NCBI GenBank assembly: GCA_947470805.1 | Contig: CANIVU010000030.1 | Coordinates: forward strand, 1 to 64,000 | Direction of reading: 5' to 3' | Source: Acidobacteriota bacterium | GTDB lineage: Bacteria; Acidobacteriota; Terriglobia; Bryobacterales; Bryobacteraceae | DNA: 64,000 nucleotides | Shown here: piece after piece, positions 21,534-40,425 of the stretch | Position numbering within the stretch: position 1 is the stretch's first letter | Layout of the letters: each line of letters starts with the position of its first letter | The notes under the pieces: generated by a model | The model's input: the letters and a program-made list of their open reading frames with translations, nothing else | The model's database searches: none | Told to the model about the DNA's origin: nothing | Made by a program: the position numbers and the translations under genes

Positions 21534-23746
21534 TGGCGAAGGGTACCACGGAGGAGCCAGACTTCCGAGAGGCGGGAGCGATTGCGCCAGTTGAGGTGCG
21601 CTTCATCGCCGGCTTTGTCCCAGGTGAGGACGATGCGGCCGTTGGTGAGGTCCGACGGGGGGACGGGGAACTCTTTGAACTCGCCGATCTGTTTGCCGTC
21701 CTTGGTGGGTTGGACGCGCTTGCCGTTGATCTTGAGCAGGGCCTGGCCGTAGCCGGTGGTGCGGACGGTGTATTCGTATTCGGGGTCGAGGCCTTCGTAG
21801 ACCATTTTGTGGGGCCACTGGGTGACGAGCCAGCTGCGCCGTTCGCGGCTATAGCCGTCGTTGCGCCACCAGAAGAGGGGCGTGGCTTCGTCCTCGTCGA
21901 TGTCGCGTTCGACGTGGGGCATTTTGGCGATGTTGCCGATAGCGTCGTAGAAGCTGCCTTCGCCGGGGGATTCCCAGTTGGCGAGTTCCATTAGGCGCGC
22001 GTTGCGTGCGGGGGCGGGGAGTTTTTCGGCTTTGGTGATTTCGTCTTCGAGCCACCAGCGGTTGTTGAGGGGGAGGTCGACGAAGTCGCGAATGGCGCCG
22101 CGCTGGGCGTCGCGGGTCTGGTATTTTCCGACGCTGGATTGGAGGTTGATGGAGAGCCAGAGAGCGTCGCAGAGATTGAGGATTTGCGGGCGGAGTTGGG
22201 CCTCTTGAGTGGGACGGGCGAGGGCTTGGCGGGCGGCGATGATGTCGCCGCGGCGGAGGGCGGCGTTGGCATCGGCTTCGGCTTGCGTGTCTTCGAGGAG
22301 ACGGCGGCGGAGGTAGGCGTCGTAGACGGCGCGGAGGTGGTGCATCTGCCAGCGCCAGTTTTTGGCGAGTTCGGGGTGGCGGGTGGCGAGGGATTGCCAC
22401 CAGCGGAGGGTGCCTTCGACGGCGCCGTTGGCGAGGAGGGGGCCGCGCCAGTTGTTTTCGAGCGCCAGGATGGCGTCGGCGATTTCTTCGGCGTCGCGGG
22501 AGTTGATGAAGAGGCGAGCGTATTCGATGAGGATGTCGCGTGGGGCGCGGGTGGGGTCCCAATCGAGGGCGGTCCAGATGATTTTGTTGACGTCATCGTG
22601 GACGCCGTCGGAGTAGGTGATGCCGCCGCTAGCGAGGGCGGCGGTTTTGCGGTGGCGGGCGGCGTATTCGACGGGGCGGGGGTTGATGGCTTCGCGGCCG
22701 AGGGTGAGGGCGTATGTCTGGTCCCAATCGGGGACTTCGAACTGGGAGCGGACGTTGTGGGAGACGTCGGGGTAGAGGCGAATCTTCATACCGGCGGGGA
22801 TGCGGCGGCGGGTTTCGGCCACGGGCGGGCTGGAGGGGCCGGCGACGATGCCGCCGAACCAGGGCGGGGTTTCGCGGGCGAGCCAGGCGTAGACGGTGTT
22901 GGCTTTGGCTTCGTTGAAGCCTTGGAGGCTGAGCCAGATTTGGGCCTGCGGGTGGACGGCGCGGACGCGAGTGGCCATTTGGGCGAGGAAGGGAAGGAGG
23001 GTTTCGGGCGGGTTGTCGCCGGGGTCGCCGCCGGGGACGAAGAGGGCGGAGAGGGTGGCGGAATCGCGGGCGATTTGGGTGATTTCGTCGAGGTAGGCGG
23101 CGGCTTTGGCGGTGTCGGCCGGTTTGAACTGAACGGGGGCCCAGATCCAGTAATCGAGGCCGTAGCGGGCGCAGATTTGGGTGATGGCGCGGTTCATTTC
23201 GCGGGCGGGGAGTTTGGCGTGCGGGCTGGGTTTTTCGCTGAAGAGGGGGATGCCTTCGACGGCGTTCATGCCGAAGAGGGTGAGCTCGCGGATGTAGGTT
23301 TCGAACTGCGGTACGGTCCATGCGTCCCAGGTGTTGTTGGTGTTGCGGTAGCCGAGTTGGTGGCCTCGGATGGGGAGTTTGGGGGCGGAGGTGATGTTGA
23401 TGTTTTTTGGGAGTTCGAGGGTGTGTGGGCCCCAGTGGAGGTGGCGGAGGAGGTGGCCGACGCCGTAGAGGAGGGCGCGGGGGGAGGCGCCTTGGATGTG
23501 GAGGGTGTTGGTTGTGGTGGTGATTTGGTAGGCGTCTGTTGGGAGAGCGGGGTCGATGCTGAGGGTGATGACTTCGCCTTGGGCGGGGCGGGTCGTGGTG
23601 ACTTTCAGGCGCAGGCCGGAGCGGTGTTCGAGCTCCTCGGCGAGGACGGTGGCGGCGGTCGATTCCGGGCTGACGATGACGGCTTTCGTGAGATCGATGG
23701 CGTGGAGGGAGGAGGCCAGCAGGAGGGCGAGCAGTGGGTAACGCAT
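21530..23746 (-). CDS. Secreted glycoside-hydrolase-like protein (GH67/GH20-type N-terminal domain)
   Basis: 738 residues with signal peptide 'LLALLLASSLHA'. An N-terminal alpha/beta domain ('KAVIVSPESTAATVLAEELEHRSGLRL', 'LLYGVGHLLRHLHW') resembles the domain that precedes the barrel in GH67 alpha-glucuronidases and GH20 hexosaminidases. The central part reads like a TIM barrel: 'PIRGHQLGYRNTNNTWDAW', 'YGLDYWIWAPVQF', 'ALFVPGGDPGDNPP', 'IWLSLQGFN' and 'KIRLYPDVSH'. The final 100 residues ('YEYTVRTTGYGQALLKINGKRV') form a beta domain. I cannot name catalytic residues or substrate with confidence. Probably acts on plant or microbial polysaccharide outside the cytoplasm. Confidence 0.75.
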   Translation of the reverse strand: MRYPLLALLLASSLHAIDLTKAVIVSPESTAATVLAEELEHRSGLRLKVTTTRPAQGEVITLSIDPALPTDAYQITTTTNTLHIQGASPRALLYGVGHLLRHLHWGPHTLELPKNINITSAPKLPIRGHQLGYRNTNNTWDAWTVPQFETYIRELTLFGMNAVEGIPLFSEKPSPHAKLPAREMNRAITQICARYGLDYWIWAPVQFKPADTAKAAAYLDEITQIARDSATLSALFVPGGDPGDNPPETLLPFLAQMATRVRAVHPQAQIWLSLQGFNEAKANTVYAWLARETPPWFGGIVAGPSSPPVAETRRRIPAGMKIRLYPDVSHNVRSQFEVPDWDQTYALTLGREAINPRPVEYAARHRKTAALASGGITYSDGVHDDVNKIIWTALDWDPTRAPRDILIEYARLFINSRDAEEIADAILALENNWRGPLLANGAVEGTLRWWQSLATRHPELAKNWRWQMHHLRAVYDAYLRRRLLEDTQAEADANAALRRGDIIAARQALARPTQEAQLRPQILNLCDALWLSINLQSSVGKYQTRDAQRGAIRDFVDLPLNNRWWLEDEITKAEKLPAPARNARLMELANWESPGEGSFYDAIGNIAKMPHVERDIDEDEATPLFWWRNDGYSRERRSWLVTQWPHKMVYEGLDPEYEYTVRTTGYGQALLKINGKRVQPTKDGKQIGEFKEFPVPPSDLTNGRIVLTWDKAGDEAHLNWRNRSRLSEVWLLRGTLRQ

Positions 23747-23818
23747 GGGTTTGTGGGCAGTTTATCAGGTGGTCTGCTATATTCGCGGTAATGGGTTGGA
23801 AGGGATAGGGGATACGCG

Positions 23819-24253
23819 GTGACACGGTTTGGATTGGCAGTGGTTGTGATGGTGTTTGCCGCCTCGTGTGAGCGGGGGAAACCGGTTTGTGCCGAGGGGC
23901 AGCCGAGCGGGGCGGAGTTGATTCGCGGTGCCGATGTGGTGTTGGTGGGTACGGCGAAGGGCGGGGAAGTGACGGTTCATTCGGTGCTGCAGGGGCGGCT
24001 GCGGGAGTTGGCCGATCGGGGGGCGTTGACGGTGGACGGGGTGCCGGATGGCGTGGCGATTGTACCGTTGCGGCTGGTGGAAGGGCGGTACCGGACGGTG
24101 ACGGGGTGTTGGACGCCGGTGATCCCGTTGGCGTGGCGGCCGGCGGAGGGGTTGGCGCTGGGGGAGATATTGCGGTCGGGTGCTCCGGCGGGGATGAAGG
24201 GCCCGATTACGCCGGAGGCCGAACGGATATTTGGGGAACTGCCATCGCTATGA
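23819..24253 (+). CDS. Small putative lipoprotein, function unknown
   Basis: 144 residues with a lipoprotein signal ('LAVVVMVFAASCERG', C17). The mature part has a beta-rich pattern ('ADVVLVGTAKGGEVTVHSVLQGRL', 'VAIVPLRLVEGRYRTVTGCW') but no family I recognise. It starts at GTG, with a purine-rich AGGGATAGGGG a few bases upstream, and overlaps the next gene by 4 nt (ATGA). The pair may form one envelope unit. Codons end mostly in G, like other plus-strand genes here. Confidence 0.75.
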   Translation: MTRFGLAVVVMVFAASCERGKPVCAEGQPSGAELIRGADVVLVGTAKGGEVTVHSVLQGRLRELADRGALTVDGVPDGVAIVPLRLVEGRYRTVTGCWTPVIPLAWRPAEGLALGEILRSGAPAGMKGPITPEAERIFGELPSL

Positions 24254-25125
24254 TGGATGGCATGGGCTGGACGATTCCGAATCCGTGTTCGAAGCGGTTT
24301 GCCGATATGGCGGGGGATGAGCGGCGGCGGTTTTGCGAGACGTGCGGGACGCATGTGCATTCGGTGGAGTTGTATTCGGAGGCGGAGTTGGCTGCGATGG
24401 GGCCGATTTGCGGTTATAGTGGCGGTACGACGGAGGGGCCGCGGCAGGGGCGGCGAGCGTTGCTGGCGGGGGCGCTGTTGACGACGATTGCGCCGCTGCT
24501 GGCGCAGGAGGGGCAGTTTGTGATTGCCGTGAAGGACGCGAAGGGGGCGGGGGTGCCTTATGCGGAGGTTACGGTTGGGAGTCGCAAAGTGTTGGCGGAC
24601 GAGGCGGGGGTGGCGAACATTTCGGGGTTGCCGGTCGGTCGCCAGGAGGTGCAGGTGGCGAGTCGCGGATTTCGGATTTGGCGTGGGGCATACACCATTA
24701 CCAACCACGAACCGCGGAGAGTGGCGGCGGTTCTGGAGGTGGGATCGGTCGGGATTGTGGAATATGTGCAGCCAAAGGCGCGCGGCGGTGCTCCTGGGCG
24801 CGTGAGTCTTTCGGTACGTGATGGGAGCGGTGGTGTGATTGCGGGGGCTGAGGTTGTGGTCGTGAGCGCAAGTGGCGCCACGCGGCACAGCCGGACGGAC
24901 GACGATGGAAATGCAGTTGTGAGCGATGTGGAGCCGGGCGAAGTGAAGGTGAGCGTAGAGCGGGATGGATTTTCGGTTTGGAGGGCGAAACGGGGGGTGA
25001 ATGGGGGAGGGGAATTGCGGTTGGAAGTCTCGTTGATACTGCGGGGGCAGGACGTGAAAGTCGACGTGAAGGAGTCAGCCGGGCGCCGGTTTTGGAACTG
25101 GCTGAGCTCCTGCACGCGGAAGTAG
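24250..25125 (+). CDS. Envelope protein: Cys-rich N-terminus, one membrane segment, two Ig-like (CNA-B/carboxypeptidase-regulatory) domains
   Basis: 291 residues. The N-terminal 'PCSKRFADMAGDERRRFCETCGTHVHSVELYSEAE' (C13, C29, C32) is a short Cys-containing module seen on several Bacteroidetes and acidobacterial membrane proteins ('C..RW..M....RFC..C...V.D....'). Then comes an Arg-Arg plus hydrophobic stretch (residues 68-86, 'GRRALLAGALLTTIAPLLAQ') and two Ig-like repeats: 'QFVIAVKDAKGAGVPYAEVTVGS' and 'RVSLSVRDGSGGVIAGAEVVVVSA'. The topology would put the Cys module inside and the Ig domains outside. Such Ig repeats also cap Oar-type receptors. Function unknown. Confidence 0.8.
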   Translation: MMDGMGWTIPNPCSKRFADMAGDERRRFCETCGTHVHSVELYSEAELAAMGPICGYSGGTTEGPRQGRRALLAGALLTTIAPLLAQEGQFVIAVKDAKGAGVPYAEVTVGSRKVLADEAGVANISGLPVGRQEVQVASRGFRIWRGAYTITNHEPRRVAAVLEVGSVGIVEYVQPKARGGAPGRVSLSVRDGSGGVIAGAEVVVVSASGATRHSRTDDDGNAVVSDVEPGEVKVSVERDGFSVWRAKRGVNGGGELRLEVSLILRGQDVKVDVKESAGRRFWNWLSSCTRK

Positions 25126-35761: not shown

Positions 35762-36295
35762 CTAGTATCGGCGCGGGAAGAACTGATAGCCATCCGACTG
35801 CAGCTTCAAGGAAAGTTCCTTTTCTCTGGCTGCCGATTCTATGGGTCCAACGAGAACTCGAGCGACTGGCGAATTCTCCATCGGGAGGAGTTTCACGTTG
35901 TAGCCCAGTTCGGTCAACCGCAATTGCATGGACCGGTCCGCCGATGGGTTCATCAACCCGACTTGGAGGTAGCTTCCGGCGGGAATCGCGGTTGCCGCTG
36001 CGGGGGCCGGCGCGGCCACGACGGGCGCCGGAATGACTGCGGCGGGAACTGCCGCGACTAACGGAGACGGCTTACTGATGGGATTCACGACCACCGGAGC
36101 CGATGGCGCCATGGTGCGAGAGGCGGACTCCTCTCCGTTCTTCATTTGGGTTACCGTGCGGCCTGCCAGATAGCTAAGGCAAGCGATCAACCCCATGAGC
36201 AATGTCATGCCCAGGATGGCGGTGGTTAGGCGGCGGTTTGCTGCGGCAAGCTCTACGTTTTCAGCGTTCGGTTGGGGGAATGTCATGTCGCTCAT
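35762..36295 (-). CDS. SPOR-domain membrane protein
   Basis: 177 residues: one membrane segment ('LTTAILGMTLLMGLIACLSYLAG', about residues 23-45), a Pro/Ala/Val-rich linker and a C-terminal about 75-residue SPOR-like domain ('YLQVGLMNPSADRSMQLRLTELGYNVKLLP', 'ARVLVGPIESAAREKELSLKLQSDGYQFF'). SPOR domains bind denuded peptidoglycan at the septum, so it may localise to division sites. The start ATG follows a 5' leader that can fold (see 36343-36387). Nothing else in the area is a division gene. Confidence 0.85.
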   Translation of the reverse strand: MSDMTFPQPNAENVELAAANRRLTTAILGMTLLMGLIACLSYLAGRTVTQMKNGEESASRTMAPSAPVVVNPISKPSPLVAAVPAAVIPAPVVAAPAPAAATAIPAGSYLQVGLMNPSADRSMQLRLTELGYNVKLLPMENSPVARVLVGPIESAAREKELSLKLQSDGYQFFPRRY

Positions 36296-36387: not shown

Positions 36388-36560
36388 CGATGTAGTTTGC
36401 GCGATAGGGCGTAACCCATTGATAAATCGATGGTTAAGTGGTGTTTGCGGAAAAAGTCCTCGGCCTCGATACGCCAGTCACAAGGTTTATAAATTTATAT
36501 TTGCTTTGTTTTCAGTTACTTGCTGGTGCAAAGTGGAAAAGGGCTTCGGCGGGGCTGCTA
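36388..36560 (+). promoter_or_regulatory. AT-rich leader before the tandem repeat array
   Basis: This stretch is clearly poorer in GC than the surrounding sequence, with TATAAA at 36488-36493 and TATATT at 36497-36502. It is a plausible promoter region for a plus-strand RNA covering the 215-bp repeats. No convincing -35 box is seen at the right distance, so the exact promoter is not assigned. Confidence 0.35.
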
Positions 36561-36775
36561 GTTTGGAATTGCGAGACGGGCCGCGCGGTTGAGCGCCCGC
36601 CGCCAACCTATGGGGATGGGTTGGTGGCGATGCTGCTGCTCCTGCACCGCCAATCTTGCAATCACGGTCCAGGCGGGCCCGGCCCTCCGGTGGGGCCCGG
36701 GAGGTCGTGCCCACCTGGACCGTTTCCGCGCGATGCGCTGCTTTGGGAGAGGCAGCGCATCGCCTCTTCTTGCGA
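36561..36775 (+). ncRNA. Candidate structured RNA, unit 1
   Basis: Stems: P1 36569-36580 with 36650-36661 (10 of 12 pairs); P2 CGCCAACC/GGTTGGTG region with a G-U pair where unit 2 has A-U; P3 GGTCCAGGCGGGC (36666-36678) with GCCCACCTGGACC (36709-36721); P4 a perfect 12-bp hairpin near 36730-36763 followed by a broken T run (CTCTTCTT). P3 here has G36677-C36710 where the other units have A-U. The reading strand is taken from the T runs after P4. Confidence 0.5.
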
Positions 36776-36990
36776 GTTTGAAATTGCGAGACGGGTAGCG
36801 CGGTTGAGCGCCCGCCACCAACCGATGGGGATGGGTTGGTGGCGATGCTGCAGCTCCTGCGCCGCCCGTTTCGCAATCACGGTCCAGGCGGACCCGACCC
36901 CCCGGTGGGGCCCGGGAGTTGGTGTCCACCTGGACCGTTTCCGTGCGATGCGCTGCTTTGGGAGAGGCAGCGCATCGCCTCTTTTATCAA
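36776..36990 (+). ncRNA. Candidate structured RNA, unit 2
   Basis: The best-paired copy. P1 36784-36795 with 36865-36876 (12 of 12, one G-U); P2 36813-36823 with 36834-36844 (11 of 11, loop GATGGGGAT..); P3 36881-36893 with 36924-36936 (12 of 13), enclosing a CCCC/GGGG inner stem; P4 36945-36956 with 36967-36978 (12 of 12), then CTCTTTT. The order P1(P2)-P3-P4 is the same in all three units. Confidence 0.55.
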
Positions 36991-37205
36991 GTTTGAAATT
37001 GCGAGACGGGCCGTGCGGTCGAGCGCCCGCCACCAACCGATGGGGATGGGTTGGCGGCGATGCTGCAGCTCCTGCGCTGGCGGTCTTGCAATCACGGTCC
37101 AGGCGGACCCGACCCCCCGGTGGGGCCCGGGCGTTCGAGTCCACCTGGACCTTTTTCGGGCGATGCGCTGCTTGGAGAGAAGCAGCGCATCGCCCCTTTT
37201 TTTGT
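36991..37205 (+). ncRNA. Candidate structured RNA, unit 3
   Basis: P1 36999-37010 with 37080-37091 (10 of 12, including a G-U; the two mismatches fall at the inner end); P2 with one A-C mismatch; P3 37096-37108 with 37139-37151, A37107-U37140 as in unit 2; P4 is lengthened to 14 bp and followed by T7. This last unit alone carries a strong intrinsic terminator, as expected if transcription runs through the array and stops here. Confidence 0.5.
37158..37203 (+). terminator. Strong intrinsic terminator at the end of the repeat array
   Basis: GGGCGATGCGCTGC (37158-37171) pairs perfectly with GCAGCGCATCGCCC (37182-37195), 10-base loop, followed by C and T7 (37197-37203). The orientation is plus, that is, away from the SPOR gene. 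On the minus strand, downstream of the receptor gene, the hairpin has no T run after it. Confidence 0.8.
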
Positions 37206-40200
37206 TAGAACGTGTAGCGCAGCACCAACTGGCCGAGGCGCGCGGCGCCGGCCGAGGGGAAAATGTGGGTGCTGGTGATCACGCCGCCATTGGCGATGTT
37301 GGCCGTCATATTGGGCTGGCCGTAGTTGACGTGGTTGAGGACGTTCTGGAAGTTGGCTCCGAGCGTTACGTTGCCGCAGCGCTCAAAGTGGAACACCTTC
37401 TGCATGCCGGCGTTGAAGAGTCCGTATCCGGGCCCCACGACCGAATTGCGGGCGGCGTTGCCGAAGCGGCCGTTGGGCGGCACGGCAAAAGCGGAGCGGT
37501 CGAACCAGTTGGTGAGGGTGCCGGGGTATTGGACGGCGCTGACGGCGTCAGGGCGGCCGCCGACGTTGTTCGTGTTCGACGGATCGGAGCCGGAGAACTG
37601 CGGGTTGAGGAAGTTGCCGGTGGAGAGGTTCACGAGCGCCGAGATCTGCCAGCCGCCCCACAGCTTGTTTTTGGCGAAGGGAATCTCATAGAGCACCTGA
37701 TTCATCCACATGTGGCGCGGGATGGAGTAGAGATCGGCCCGGTCGCGACGGCGGTTGTAGGCGTCTTCGATTTGCGTGTTCAACTCGGCCGAGCCGGTGT
37801 CGTCGACTTCGCTCAGCGACTTAGCCCAGGTCCAGGCCGACATTACCATCAGCCCCTTTTCAAAGCGTCGGTTCAACTGGACTTGGAGGCCGTTATAGAT
37901 GGAATTGGCGCCGCTTTCGGCGTAGACGATGTTGTTGTAGCGCGGGTAGGGGCGGCGGGCAGCCGTGAAGGCCACTGTGGAGGCGACCGGCTGGTTGATA
38001 TTGCGCTGGTAGGGGAGTTGCGAGCCCTTGGCGCCGATGTAGTTGATGCGGACGCCGGTGGATTTGGTCAGTTCGCGTTCGATGGTGAAGCTCCACTGCG
38101 TGGACACTTGATTGCGGAGGTCCGGGGCGATGCCGTTTAGGTTGAGCGCGCCGGGGACGCCGGCGGCGGCGAAGGGTTTATCGAACGTGAAGACGGCCTG
38201 GCCGTTGACGATGTTGTTATTTGCCGTGGTGGAGAGCGAGAACGGGCCACCGGAGATGGCCGAGGGGACCACGCCCGAGAAGTGGCCGTAGTAGGCGCCG
38301 ATGCCGCCGCGCAGAACGGTGCGGCTGTTCAACTGGTAGGCGAGGCCGAGGCGCGGGGCCCAGTTGTTTTTGTCGGCGTTGCGGAAGGTCTTCGGCAGAC
38401 CGAGGCTGGCCGCGGTGACGATCGGCACGTCGGTGGGGAAGAAGGGGCTGAAGAGCTTGCGGGCGCTGTCGTCGGGGATGATGACGGAGCCACTCTTCGG
38501 ATCGAAGCTGAACATGTTGCCGTCGCGGGCGTAGGCGGGCTGGTTGTATTCGTAGCGCAGGCCGAGGCTGATGGTCAGCTGGCGAGAAATTTTCCAGTCG
38601 TCCTGAGCGTAGAAAGACGCGTCGGCCCAGCGGTTGTACTGGGTGGGGTAGGGATCGATGCGGGTGACCGAAGTCGGCAGGCCGAGGAGGTAATCGGCAT
38701 AGGGGGTGCCGGTGTAACGGTTGGTGAAGCTGAAGCTGCCGTAGAGGCCCTGGACGCTGGGCAGGTAACGGTTGACGAACCAGTTAATGTATTCGCCGCC
38801 GAATTTGAAGGTATGCTTGCCAGTGTTCCAGGTGAAGTTATCGGAGAACTGCCAGTGGCCGTCGTTGACGGGGTTGAGCAGGCTTTGGAGCGGGGAGTTG
38901 AGGCCGGTGATGTTGAGCACCGGGATGCCGGGGGCGTAGCTGCGCGCGGGCAGGCCGGTGATGCCGATCGTGTCGATCAGCTTCTGGCCGGTGACGTCGG
39001 CGAAGGATTTGGATGAGAGCACGACGAAGCCGAAGCGGGCTTCATTGAACATGTTCGGCTTGATGGTGTAAACGTCGCCGAGCGAGGCGAAGTGGACTTC
39101 GCGGATATTGGTGGAGGTGCCGACGGTTTCGGGAGGCAGAGTGCTGCGGGCGCCGGGGATCTTGTAGTCGCTCTTCTTCCATTGATAACGGGCGAAGGAG
39201 CTGTGGGCGGGCGTCCAGTTGTGATCGAAGCGGGACTCGTAGATGCTGTGGGTTTCCGGGCCGTTGTAAGCGGCGCGGTAGTTGGCGGCGGTGAGAGATG
39301 CCGGGCCGAAGTTGGGGAGCGGGAAGAGCAGTTCCTGCGCCTTCTTCGCTTGCGGGCTGATGAACTGGGGCAGGATGGTGTTGCCGCTGAAGGGGTTGAC
39401 GCCGTTGAAGGGGTTGCGGAGCGCGGCCTGACCGGTGAAGTCGCCGTTGCGCATGGCGAGGGTGGGGACGTTGGGGCTAAAGAGGTAGGCGCGGGAGCCG
39501 CGGGTTTGATCGAATGTCAGTTGGAAGAACGTCTTGTCCTTCTTCAGCGGGCCGCCGAAGGTGGCGCCGTAGTTGTGGATGTTCTGATAGGGCTTGGCGG
39601 TGGAGAAGGTATTGCGGGCGTCGAGGGCGCTGTTGCGGCCGTACCAGAACAGGTCGCCGTGGTACTTGTTGCTGCCGGAGCGGGTGACGGAGGTGACCAC
39701 GCCCATGCCGCCGAATTCGGCCTTATTGGAGAGGATGTTGGCGGTGAATTCGCCGATGGCTTCCATGGAGGGCTGGGAGACGGGGTCGGGCGTGCCGAAG
39801 TTGCCGAAGTTGGTTTCGATGCCGTCGACCTTGGTCTTGAGGCTATTGGCGCCGGCGCCGGGGGTGACCCAGGCGGCGCCCGCGCCCACCTGGACGAGGC
39901 CGGGGACGGTGAGCGGCATCATCTGCGAGATCATGCCGGAGTCGCCGGCGTTGTTGGAGACGGAACGCAGGTTGGAGGGCAGTTCGCGGAGGGCTTTGAG
40001 GGAGAGATTGGTAGCGATGGAGGCGCTTTCGGCTTGGAGCAGCGTGGTCACTTCGCCGAGGACTTCGACGGTGTTGATGGTCTCACCGACCAGGAGATTC
40101 AAGTCCGCGCGCACGGTGCGGTAGGCGGCGACCTGGAAGGCGGCACTGGCCAAGGGTTTGAAGCCCTTGGCCTCGGTGCGCAGGTCGTATTCGCCGGGCA

Positions 40201-40402
40201 GGACGTTGGCGAAAACGTAGATGCCGGCGCCATTGGAAACGGTCTTGGTTTCGATGTTGGTGGCGGTGTTCTTCAAGCGGATGGCGGCGTTGGGAACGGC
40301 GGCGCCGGAAGGATCGGCCACGAGTCCAGTCACTGTGCCTAAAGGCGATTGCGCAAACAGCGCGCACGAAAGGGCGGCAAGCCCGAGAAGCAAGCGATTC
40401 AT
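37205..40402 (-). CDS. Oar-like TonB-dependent receptor with carboxypeptidase-regulatory N-terminal domain (1)
   Basis: 1065 residues. Signal peptide 'LLLGLAALSCALFAQ', then a CarboxypepD_reg-like Ig domain ('GTVTGLVADPSGAAVPNAAIRLKNTATNIETKTVSNGAGIYVFANVLPGEYDL', about residues 22-75), a plug-like region, and a long beta barrel ending in 'QLVLRYTF' with the terminal Phe used by the BAM machinery. This architecture is greatly expanded in Acidobacteria and is thought to take up plant or polymer-derived compounds. I use the ATG at 40402 rather than the TTG at 40408. No SusD-like partner is nearby. Ligand unknown. Confidence 0.92.
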   Translation of the reverse strand: MNRLLLGLAALSCALFAQSPLGTVTGLVADPSGAAVPNAAIRLKNTATNIETKTVSNGAGIYVFANVLPGEYDLRTEAKGFKPLASAAFQVAAYRTVRADLNLLVGETINTVEVLGEVTTLLQAESASIATNLSLKALRELPSNLRSVSNNAGDSGMISQMMPLTVPGLVQVGAGAAWVTPGAGANSLKTKVDGIETNFGNFGTPDPVSQPSMEAIGEFTANILSNKAEFGGMGVVTSVTRSGSNKYHGDLFWYGRNSALDARNTFSTAKPYQNIHNYGATFGGPLKKDKTFFQLTFDQTRGSRAYLFSPNVPTLAMRNGDFTGQAALRNPFNGVNPFSGNTILPQFISPQAKKAQELLFPLPNFGPASLTAANYRAAYNGPETHSIYESRFDHNWTPAHSSFARYQWKKSDYKIPGARSTLPPETVGTSTNIREVHFASLGDVYTIKPNMFNEARFGFVVLSSKSFADVTGQKLIDTIGITGLPARSYAPGIPVLNITGLNSPLQSLLNPVNDGHWQFSDNFTWNTGKHTFKFGGEYINWFVNRYLPSVQGLYGSFSFTNRYTGTPYADYLLGLPTSVTRIDPYPTQYNRWADASFYAQDDWKISRQLTISLGLRYEYNQPAYARDGNMFSFDPKSGSVIIPDDSARKLFSPFFPTDVPIVTAASLGLPKTFRNADKNNWAPRLGLAYQLNSRTVLRGGIGAYYGHFSGVVPSAISGGPFSLSTTANNNIVNGQAVFTFDKPFAAAGVPGALNLNGIAPDLRNQVSTQWSFTIERELTKSTGVRINYIGAKGSQLPYQRNINQPVASTVAFTAARRPYPRYNNIVYAESGANSIYNGLQVQLNRRFEKGLMVMSAWTWAKSLSEVDDTGSAELNTQIEDAYNRRRDRADLYSIPRHMWMNQVLYEIPFAKNKLWGGWQISALVNLSTGNFLNPQFSGSDPSNTNNVGGRPDAVSAVQYPGTLTNWFDRSAFAVPPNGRFGNAARNSVVGPGYGLFNAGMQKVFHFERCGNVTLGANFQNVLNHVNYGQPNMTANIANGGVITSTHIFPSAGAARLGQLVLRYTF

Positions 40403-40425
40403 TAACAACTATTTTCGCACGCAGC

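Follow-up and report, generated by a model that had tools for sequence, protein, structure and literature searches.

The window analysed here, a stretch of 64,000 nucleotides from an acidobacterial genome of the family Bryobacteraceae (contig CANIVU010000030.1), appears to carry a structured, plus-strand non-coding RNA of ~200 nt in three tandem copies. The array is preceded by a long promoter element that we also found in front of phage-like terminase operons. The link of this RNA to a GTA-like regulon is well supported at the level of sequence and, because the RNA has the same promoter element as the GTA-like cluster, it probably takes part in the virus-like programme of that cluster. We consider it fairly likely that we are dealing with a plus-strand structured RNA that is co-regulated with the cluster and presumably acts in trans in the phage-like programme. 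Neither the upstream promoter element nor the link to a phage-like cluster had been noticed in the original prediction, an earlier note that described the array as three copies of an unrecognised, conserved RNA-like structure.

By using Tandem Repeats Finder, we located the array at 36556-37198, with a period of 215, 3.0 copies and no indels. The three 215-bp copies in register that had been predicted are therefore present, with limits about 5 bp away (36556-37200) from those first proposed (36561-37205). The units align without gaps, with pairwise identities of 91, 89 and 86%, and their hairpins H1, H2 and H3 occupy unit columns 13-107, 109-167 and 174-208, respectively (Table 1). The array occupies part of the 909 bp that separate the end of an outer-membrane beta-barrel/TonB-like gene from the start of a gene for a 177-aa protein, which we presume to be SPOR-like and of which a homologue is present in 18 of the 19 genomes of the genus. 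A 256-aa plus-strand open frame crosses the array; as the period is not divisible by three, which had already been pointed out, and homologous units vary between 207 and 218 bp, we rejected this frame as a gene.

Table 1. Features of the array and its surroundings, in positions of the window (R1 is the covariance model of the three window units)
Feature	Position	Strand	Remarks
Divergent neighbour, 177-aa protein gene	35762..36295	-	no Pfam match
Upstream promoter element, 46 bp	36477..36522	+	GTCACA...AAATTTATATTTGCTTTGTTTTCA...; common to terminase-operon promoters
Unit 1 of array	36556..36770	+	R1 242.7 bits; R1 built from units 1-3 themselves
-10-like hexamer TAGTTT	36559..36564	+	unit 1 columns 4-9; aligned by eye with TAGAGT of terminase-operon promoters
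H1 of unit 1	36568..36662	+	long branch with inner hairpin, GGGG apical loop; from unit 2 fold, conservation and covariation
H2 of unit 1	36664..36722	+	long, fast-changing hairpin
H3 of unit 1	36730..36763	+	terminator-like hairpin, GGAG loop, then CTCTTCT
Unit 2 of array	36771..36985	+	R1 252.5 bits; R1 built from units 1-3 themselves
H3 of unit 2	36945..36978	+	terminator-like hairpin, then CTCTTTT
Unit 3 of array	36986..37200	+	R1 245.5 bits; R1 built from units 1-3 themselves
H3 of unit 3	37158..37203	+	strongest terminator-like hairpin, 16 pairs, then T7
Convergent neighbour, outer-membrane beta-barrel/TonB-like gene	37205..40408	-	Pfam OMP_b-brl_4, CarboxypepD_reg, E 8e-200

Homologues were searched with three covariance models, R1 (the three window units), R2 (ten units) and R3 (H1 only). 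Family members were found in five other genomes of the genus and in one metagenomic contig, with full-length units 45-95% identical between genomes. First, the same locus holds one copy each in G002, G003 and G007, and three tandem copies in G014. Second, G018 has one copy at another locus, not at the 177-aa gene. Third, L208, a metagenomic viral contig of 4507 bp, ends inside a copy (R2, 61.5 bits over the last 116 bases); this break might mean that a tandem array is present there too. With R1, the units of G002, G007 and G003 and the first copy of G014 scored 147-167 bits, and those of G018 and copies 2 and 3 of G014 scored 82-98 bits. At 95% identity, the units of G002 and G007 amount to little more than one observation. 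Copies 2 and 3 of G014 are 93% identical to each other and only 53-54% to copy 1, so that this triplication is separate from that of the window.

Counting the source genome (G000), 6 of the 19 genomes of the genus carry the RNA. R2 applied to 237 genomes of the family and 257 of the order, two sets that overlap, recovered the same six carriers, all belonging to one genus, and neither R2 nor R3 gave a convincing match in the other genera among the 237 family genomes; about 10 candidates per genome were scored in these large searches under strict filters, so weak members may escape. A DNA search of 151 genomes returned long matches in G000, G002, G003, G007 and G014, and the other 71 of the 76 genomes listed were dropped as they had no match above 40.1 bits. 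Some further candidates were set aside: G013 (29.1 bits with R1, the seventh at E <= 0.01 among the 19 genus genomes), which aligns well only in one hairpin; G163 (26.2 bits with R2), treated as chance; and G154, G037 and G248 (22.9-25.3 bits with R3), for which rescoring with R2 gave 20.3 bits in G037 and nothing at E <= 0.1 in the other two. Phage and plasmid collections gave no RNA match at E 1e-5, at least 118 genome-contig stretches fitting a loose core pattern reached at best 17.5 bits with R2, and the viral-contig core patterns besides L208 yielded no R2 match (L209), 10.8 bits (L393) or no contigs at all (a third pattern).

In a tree of the 177-aa protein covering 17 of the 18 genomes that have the gene, the six carriers fall into one supported clade together with G006, G013 and G010; G006 and G013 are without a convincing RNA, and the G010 contig ends near the site. 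The RNA adjoins the 177-aa gene in 5 of 7 loci, either directly or, in G003, with two ORFs in between (L051 9054-11112, both without a Pfam match). On its other side, a homologue of the TonB-like gene adjoins the RNA in G003 and G014, the 3' end of this gene is visible in G007, and the G002 contig stops short. A DNA search of the 8.7-Mb source genome at E <= 0.01 returned the three copies of the array and no others; single units elsewhere in this genome, as envisaged originally, were thus not found, nor were the dispersed copies expected of a mobile palindromic element.

Upstream of unit 1, we found a 46-bp AT-rich element (GTCACA...TTTATATTTCCTTTGTTTTCA...) that aligns without gaps with the region preceding TerS in G000, G003, G014, G018 and L208. 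When scored with a matrix made from the five TerS sites only, with no RNA sites, the site before the array reached 57.9 bits and the next best site of the window 14.1 bits; by this measure, the RNA carries the promoter element of the terminase operon. With the same matrix, the RNA of each of the other six loci was likewise preceded by a site, of 41-55 bits. The element precedes unit 1 only, and no second copy was found in the window or in L052. Moreover, the alignment places a TAGyTT hexamer (unit columns 4-9) opposite the TAGAGT of the terminase promoters. As read from the alignment, the T at column 4 is retained by 6 of the 7 promoter-proximal units and by 0 of the 4 inner ones. Speaking against our reading, no clear -35 box was seen before unit 1, where a strict sigma-70 scan found nothing; CTTGG was rejected as a -35 box, being only ~10 bases from the -10-like hexamer.

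In G000, the 24-base core of the element gave three matches with 0-2 mismatches and two weak ones with 3 mismatches, and a reversed-pattern control gave none. The site with two mismatches lies before a remnant of the terminase operon, and that with one mismatch is ~300 bp upstream of a TPR-CHAT gene (CHAT protease), which is followed by a sigma-70-like gene and then by a zinc-finger-like one just under the Pfam cut-off. The stretch with these three genes behind the element (G000:C27, L356 3382-7128) also has a conserved hairpin-like leader, and starts similar to this leader were seen by eye in G002, G003, G004 and G014. Across the genus, element sites occur in 10 of 19 genomes, with 0 control matches. 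Inspection by eye assigned 18 of 30 sites, that is five TerS operons, five CHAT-type TPR genes (one of the five tested by Pfam), seven ENGAKSKGP-type small proteins and the array. G013 and G006 have eleven and seven sites, respectively, and no convincing RNA, which counts against our reading.

Several other features accompany the element. The ENGAKSKGP-type small proteins behind it (L331, L332, L343, L344, L349, L352, L354 and, in G000, C75 = L358) represent a second element, with a terminase-like gene nearby, seen by eye in L352 and by Pfam in L358. Another protein family stands directly behind the promoter element in L336 (G003) and L370 (G002). In G013 and G006 (L328, L338, L348, L339), a strong GG(A/C)..GGCCC...GGGCC.. 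hairpin comes soon after the element, perhaps another short RNA or a leader.

We then considered the element in front of TerL more widely. Out of the best-scoring 106 TerL loci, 54 had at least 460 bp upstream. A site of at least 30 bits lies 329-411 bp before TerL in 11 of these 54 loci, and one of at least 20 bits in 14; in 29, the best site falls within this same interval, and the highest score elsewhere was 20.4. From these scores, we take the element to be a promoter that belongs to the cluster itself in some members of the family; in most of these loci it was not detected. Four viral contigs with the exact 21-base core of the element scored 30.7-40.0 bits with the matrix, and no RNA was found in them at E <= 1.

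The RNA stands beside the TerL operon in 2 of 7 loci (G018 and L208), where it is directly divergent from a small TerS-like ORF and the TerL and portal genes, and elsewhere in the other five. The terminase stretches of G018 and L208 share 74% DNA identity. TerL and portal of G018 were recognised by Pfam or PHROGs, TerL matching Terminase_6N and Terminase_6C (Pfam) and general terminase PHROGs. Two metagenomic contigs that have this TerL break off in the RNA (L208) or in the TerS-like ORF (L210), and several ~16-kb IMG/VR contigs, which may be chromosomal and not viral, begin near the cluster's terminase.

TerL was present at E <= 1e-30 in 189 of 257 order genomes, with a single match in 179 of them (counted from the listing). 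The cluster of G003 spans ~16-17 kb (G003:C8, L387 393-17092), and the 14 ORFs scanned in it include TerL, portal, a scaffold-like protein (weak), a P22-like major head and tail families, with no integrase among them. A major head protein 83-93% identical to that of G003 occurs in nine further genomes of the 19 in the genus. What we found is a head-tail cluster, mostly in single copy, wide in the lineage and without an integrase; because of its mostly single copy, wide presence and missing integrase, we call it GTA-like, that is apparently a domesticated phage with a putative role in DNA packaging or transfer. In G003, the cluster is followed by a thiamine-pyrophosphate enzyme gene (Pfam), presumably acetolactate synthase-like; in G018, the neighbour is argJ instead. 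G000 holds a remnant (C84 ~22761-24750; L323, L357) made of the promoter element, a TerS-like ORF and a TerL start that continues into what is left of a tail protein. The central part of the cluster has been lost, and the same thiamine-pyrophosphate enzyme gene comes after. Searches of G000 for TerL (E <= 1e-30) and for the major head protein (E <= 1e-10) both gave nothing; the phage-like cluster of this genome is broken.

Part of these results goes against our favoured reading. G000 kept and triplicated the RNA despite its broken cluster, G002 and G007 are without TerL and major head (in assemblies that are 83% and 62% complete, respectively), and in G003 and G014, where the cluster is present, no RNA was detected beside it. 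A kept and triplicated RNA in a genome with a broken terminase operon, together with the same promoter element, would suit a decoy or brake, a copied piece of the regulon that now counteracts the phage-like regulon or invading relatives. We hold this to be unlikely, as G003, G014 and G018 have RNA and cluster together and nothing shows antagonism. The head-to-head arrangement of RNA and terminase operon in G018 and L208, with a promoter element common to both, could also mean that the RNA is a functional component of the phage-like particle or takes part in packaging DNA, like the packaging RNA of phi29, its copies away from the cluster being spare or decayed. This is quite unlikely, since three genomes retain the RNA without a detected TerL. 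Moreover, R3 found nothing at E <= 0.5 in 91 TerL loci and nine other stretches, many with little DNA upstream of TerL (in the near-identical set of 106 loci, only the 54 mentioned above had at least 460 bp). R2 on 40 TerL loci gave 13.9 bits at best.

The RNA itself was assessed by its fold. For unit 2, the folding energy was -140.5 kcal/mol (z -10.0) for the plus strand and -134.2 kcal/mol (z -10.2) for the minus strand, and none of 200 shuffles equalled either strand; as both strands surpass the shuffles by a wide margin, the fold cannot by itself tell which strand is used. The four stems of the original prediction fit the fold, as the outer stem and inner hairpin of H1, H2 and H3. H1 contains a conserved core, GGUUGAGCGCC ... 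UGCnGCUCCyG. H2 has both sides changed in 15 of 23 pairs, with 95.9% of cells paired, and includes the exchange first noticed between G36677-C36710 of unit 1 and A-U in units 2 and 3, which is a double change at columns 122 and 155. The strongest hairpin, with T7, is at the end of the last unit as had been stated, and the 3' hairpins of all three units are terminator-like.

In the ten-unit alignment, which is fitted to R1 and thereby biased in favour of the structure, double-sided changes affected 42 of 76 pairs, a count that 0 of 500 shuffles reached, and 94.6% of cells were paired, versus 37-46% for slid structures. The conserved RNA of the original prediction is borne out by the homologues and by these changes. 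RNAalifold, which had been proposed as a check, gave a covariation term of -12.25 on the fitted alignment; on an unfitted MAFFT alignment, the plus-strand term was slightly unfavourable (+3.3) and counts against our reading. On this unfitted alignment, double-sided changes affected 32 of 67 pairs on the plus strand versus 28 of 57 for the best minus-strand structure, and z was -16.3 and -17.3, respectively, against column shuffles; that the minus strand comes so close is a further point against our reading. As judged from the alignments, a conserved secondary structure with covariation is present in the RNA, and is weaker on the unfitted one.

The balance of G-U to A-C cells is informative on the strand. 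The ratio was 56:13 for the plus strand on the fitted alignment and, on the unfitted one, 50:15 for the plus strand versus 33:26 for the best minus-strand structure. Together with the T-tracts, these counts favour the plus strand as the RNA strand. A functional transcript on the minus strand, acting as terminator or 3' UTR for the TonB-like gene or as leader to the 177-aa gene, would agree with the nearly equal folding of that strand and with a position between two minus-strand genes. However, the T-tracts, the G-U excess and the promoter element all indicate the plus strand, the RNA of G018 and L208 lies elsewhere, and ~640 bp separate the RNA from the TonB-like gene in G007, which makes such a transcript very unlikely. 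That the array is a satellite or mobile palindrome with no role as an RNA, a thought prompted by the triplications in two lineages and the different place of the G018 copy, is most improbable for a sequence that is unique in its genome, with double-sided pair changes and a conserved promoter element. As for the mobile element that the original prediction had kept as an alternative, uniqueness in G000 speaks against it, and the terminase operon adjoining the RNA in two of the seven loci leaves it some probability; no transposase was recognised by eye in the ORF lists.

We therefore return to a plus-strand RNA co-regulated with the GTA-like cluster. An activator of the phage-like programme would bind the element and switch on the RNA and the capsid/terminase operon, and the same activator would induce the CHAT gene together with them. 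Transcription would start near the foot of H1 and stop at one of the three terminators, with predicted products of ~200, 415 and 630 nt. Because the column-4 T and the element are absent there, the inner units would be transcribed only by read-through of the preceding terminator, and tandem duplication would raise the dosage of the RNA. The RNA would act in trans, most likely by binding a protein or by using its conserved core to pair with mRNAs of the regulon. Since base pairs of H1 take up the conserved CUCC, a direct anti-Shine-Dalgarno action would need refolding, a point against this part of our reading; we do not rely on a possible pairing of CUCCyG with the Shine-Dalgarno of the terminase operon, seen by eye in several genomes, as the segment is paired in H1 and G003 misfits. 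CsrA/RsmA sponge RNAs carry several GGA motifs in hairpin loops; set against this pattern, GGAG is found in the H3 loop in 10 of 10 units (read from the alignment), and the apical loop of H1 is G-rich, reading GGGG or GGG across the ten units. More tentatively, it is possible that the GTA-like system has a dedicated structured RNA, be it a regulator, an anti-terminator or a packaging component, co-induced with the terminase operon and the CHAT protease through one element and amplified by tandem duplication, which would make this a GTA programme with an RNA arm.

We regard the RNA as a new family, covarying and without an Rfam 15 match at threshold, which a promoter element of unusual length and specificity connects with a GTA-like cluster found in 189 of 257 order genomes. 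The regulon suggested by this element, namely the terminase operon, the CHAT-protease gene, the second terminase element and the RNA, is testable. Unrecognised the RNA indeed is, since none of the 4227 families of Rfam 15 matched in the window at the gathering score. Around the array, 14 sub-threshold matches up to E 5 were seen, six of which concerned five families, miRNA or other, that are implausible here, and none was accepted. The lowest E-value among the 14 was 0.0039, for Trans44_sRNA at 21.3 of 108 bits. The highest bits were those of the Caulobacter sRNA CC1840 (RF01521), on the minus strand and once per unit (32.8, 27.1 and 26.3 bits), far below its gathering score of 50 and taken as chance. 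Trans-acting bacterial small RNAs with intrinsic terminators include tandem sibling sRNAs. The array resembles these by its candidate promoter, compact structured RNA, terminator-like end hairpin and tandem copies, and differs from them in that its inner copies are without the promoter element, that the element is common to a phage-like operon, and that no Rfam family matches at threshold.

Among phage components, the packaging RNA of phi29 is structured, phage-encoded and 174 nt long, and the phi29 packaging enzyme also has an RNase H-like domain, according to the sections of that work consulted (PMC11476376). The likeness lies in a structured RNA near packaging genes, here in G018 and L208; unlike in phi29, the RNA is retained here in genomes without a detected terminase, and its binding to a portal would be hypothetical (PMC11476376). 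In 24 Acidobacteria genomes, 35 prophages were reported, and the part of that survey consulted mentions no GTA cluster (PMC5900883). Among the open-access papers listed, none stood out as dealing with a non-coding RNA in the control of GTAs. The 14-kb GTA cluster of Caulobacter, in the portion of the account consulted, is controlled by GafY/IHF activation and GafZ anti-termination (PMC11150451). It is similar in size to the ~16-17 kb cluster described here and is coordinated with distant accessory genes; unlike for the array, its control is described there without an RNA component (PMC11150451). The Caulobacter peptidase system LypABC, which is CARD-NLR-like, is regulated together with the GTA and coupled to its release, as stated in the part of the report consulted (PMC13236601). 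Here, unlike in LypABC, a TPR-CHAT protein goes with a sigma-like gene, and any function in release would be presumptive (PMC13236601). Still, as the CHAT-protease gene carries the element of the GTA-like cluster, the arrangement would resemble this co-regulation of peptidase and GTA (PMC13236601).
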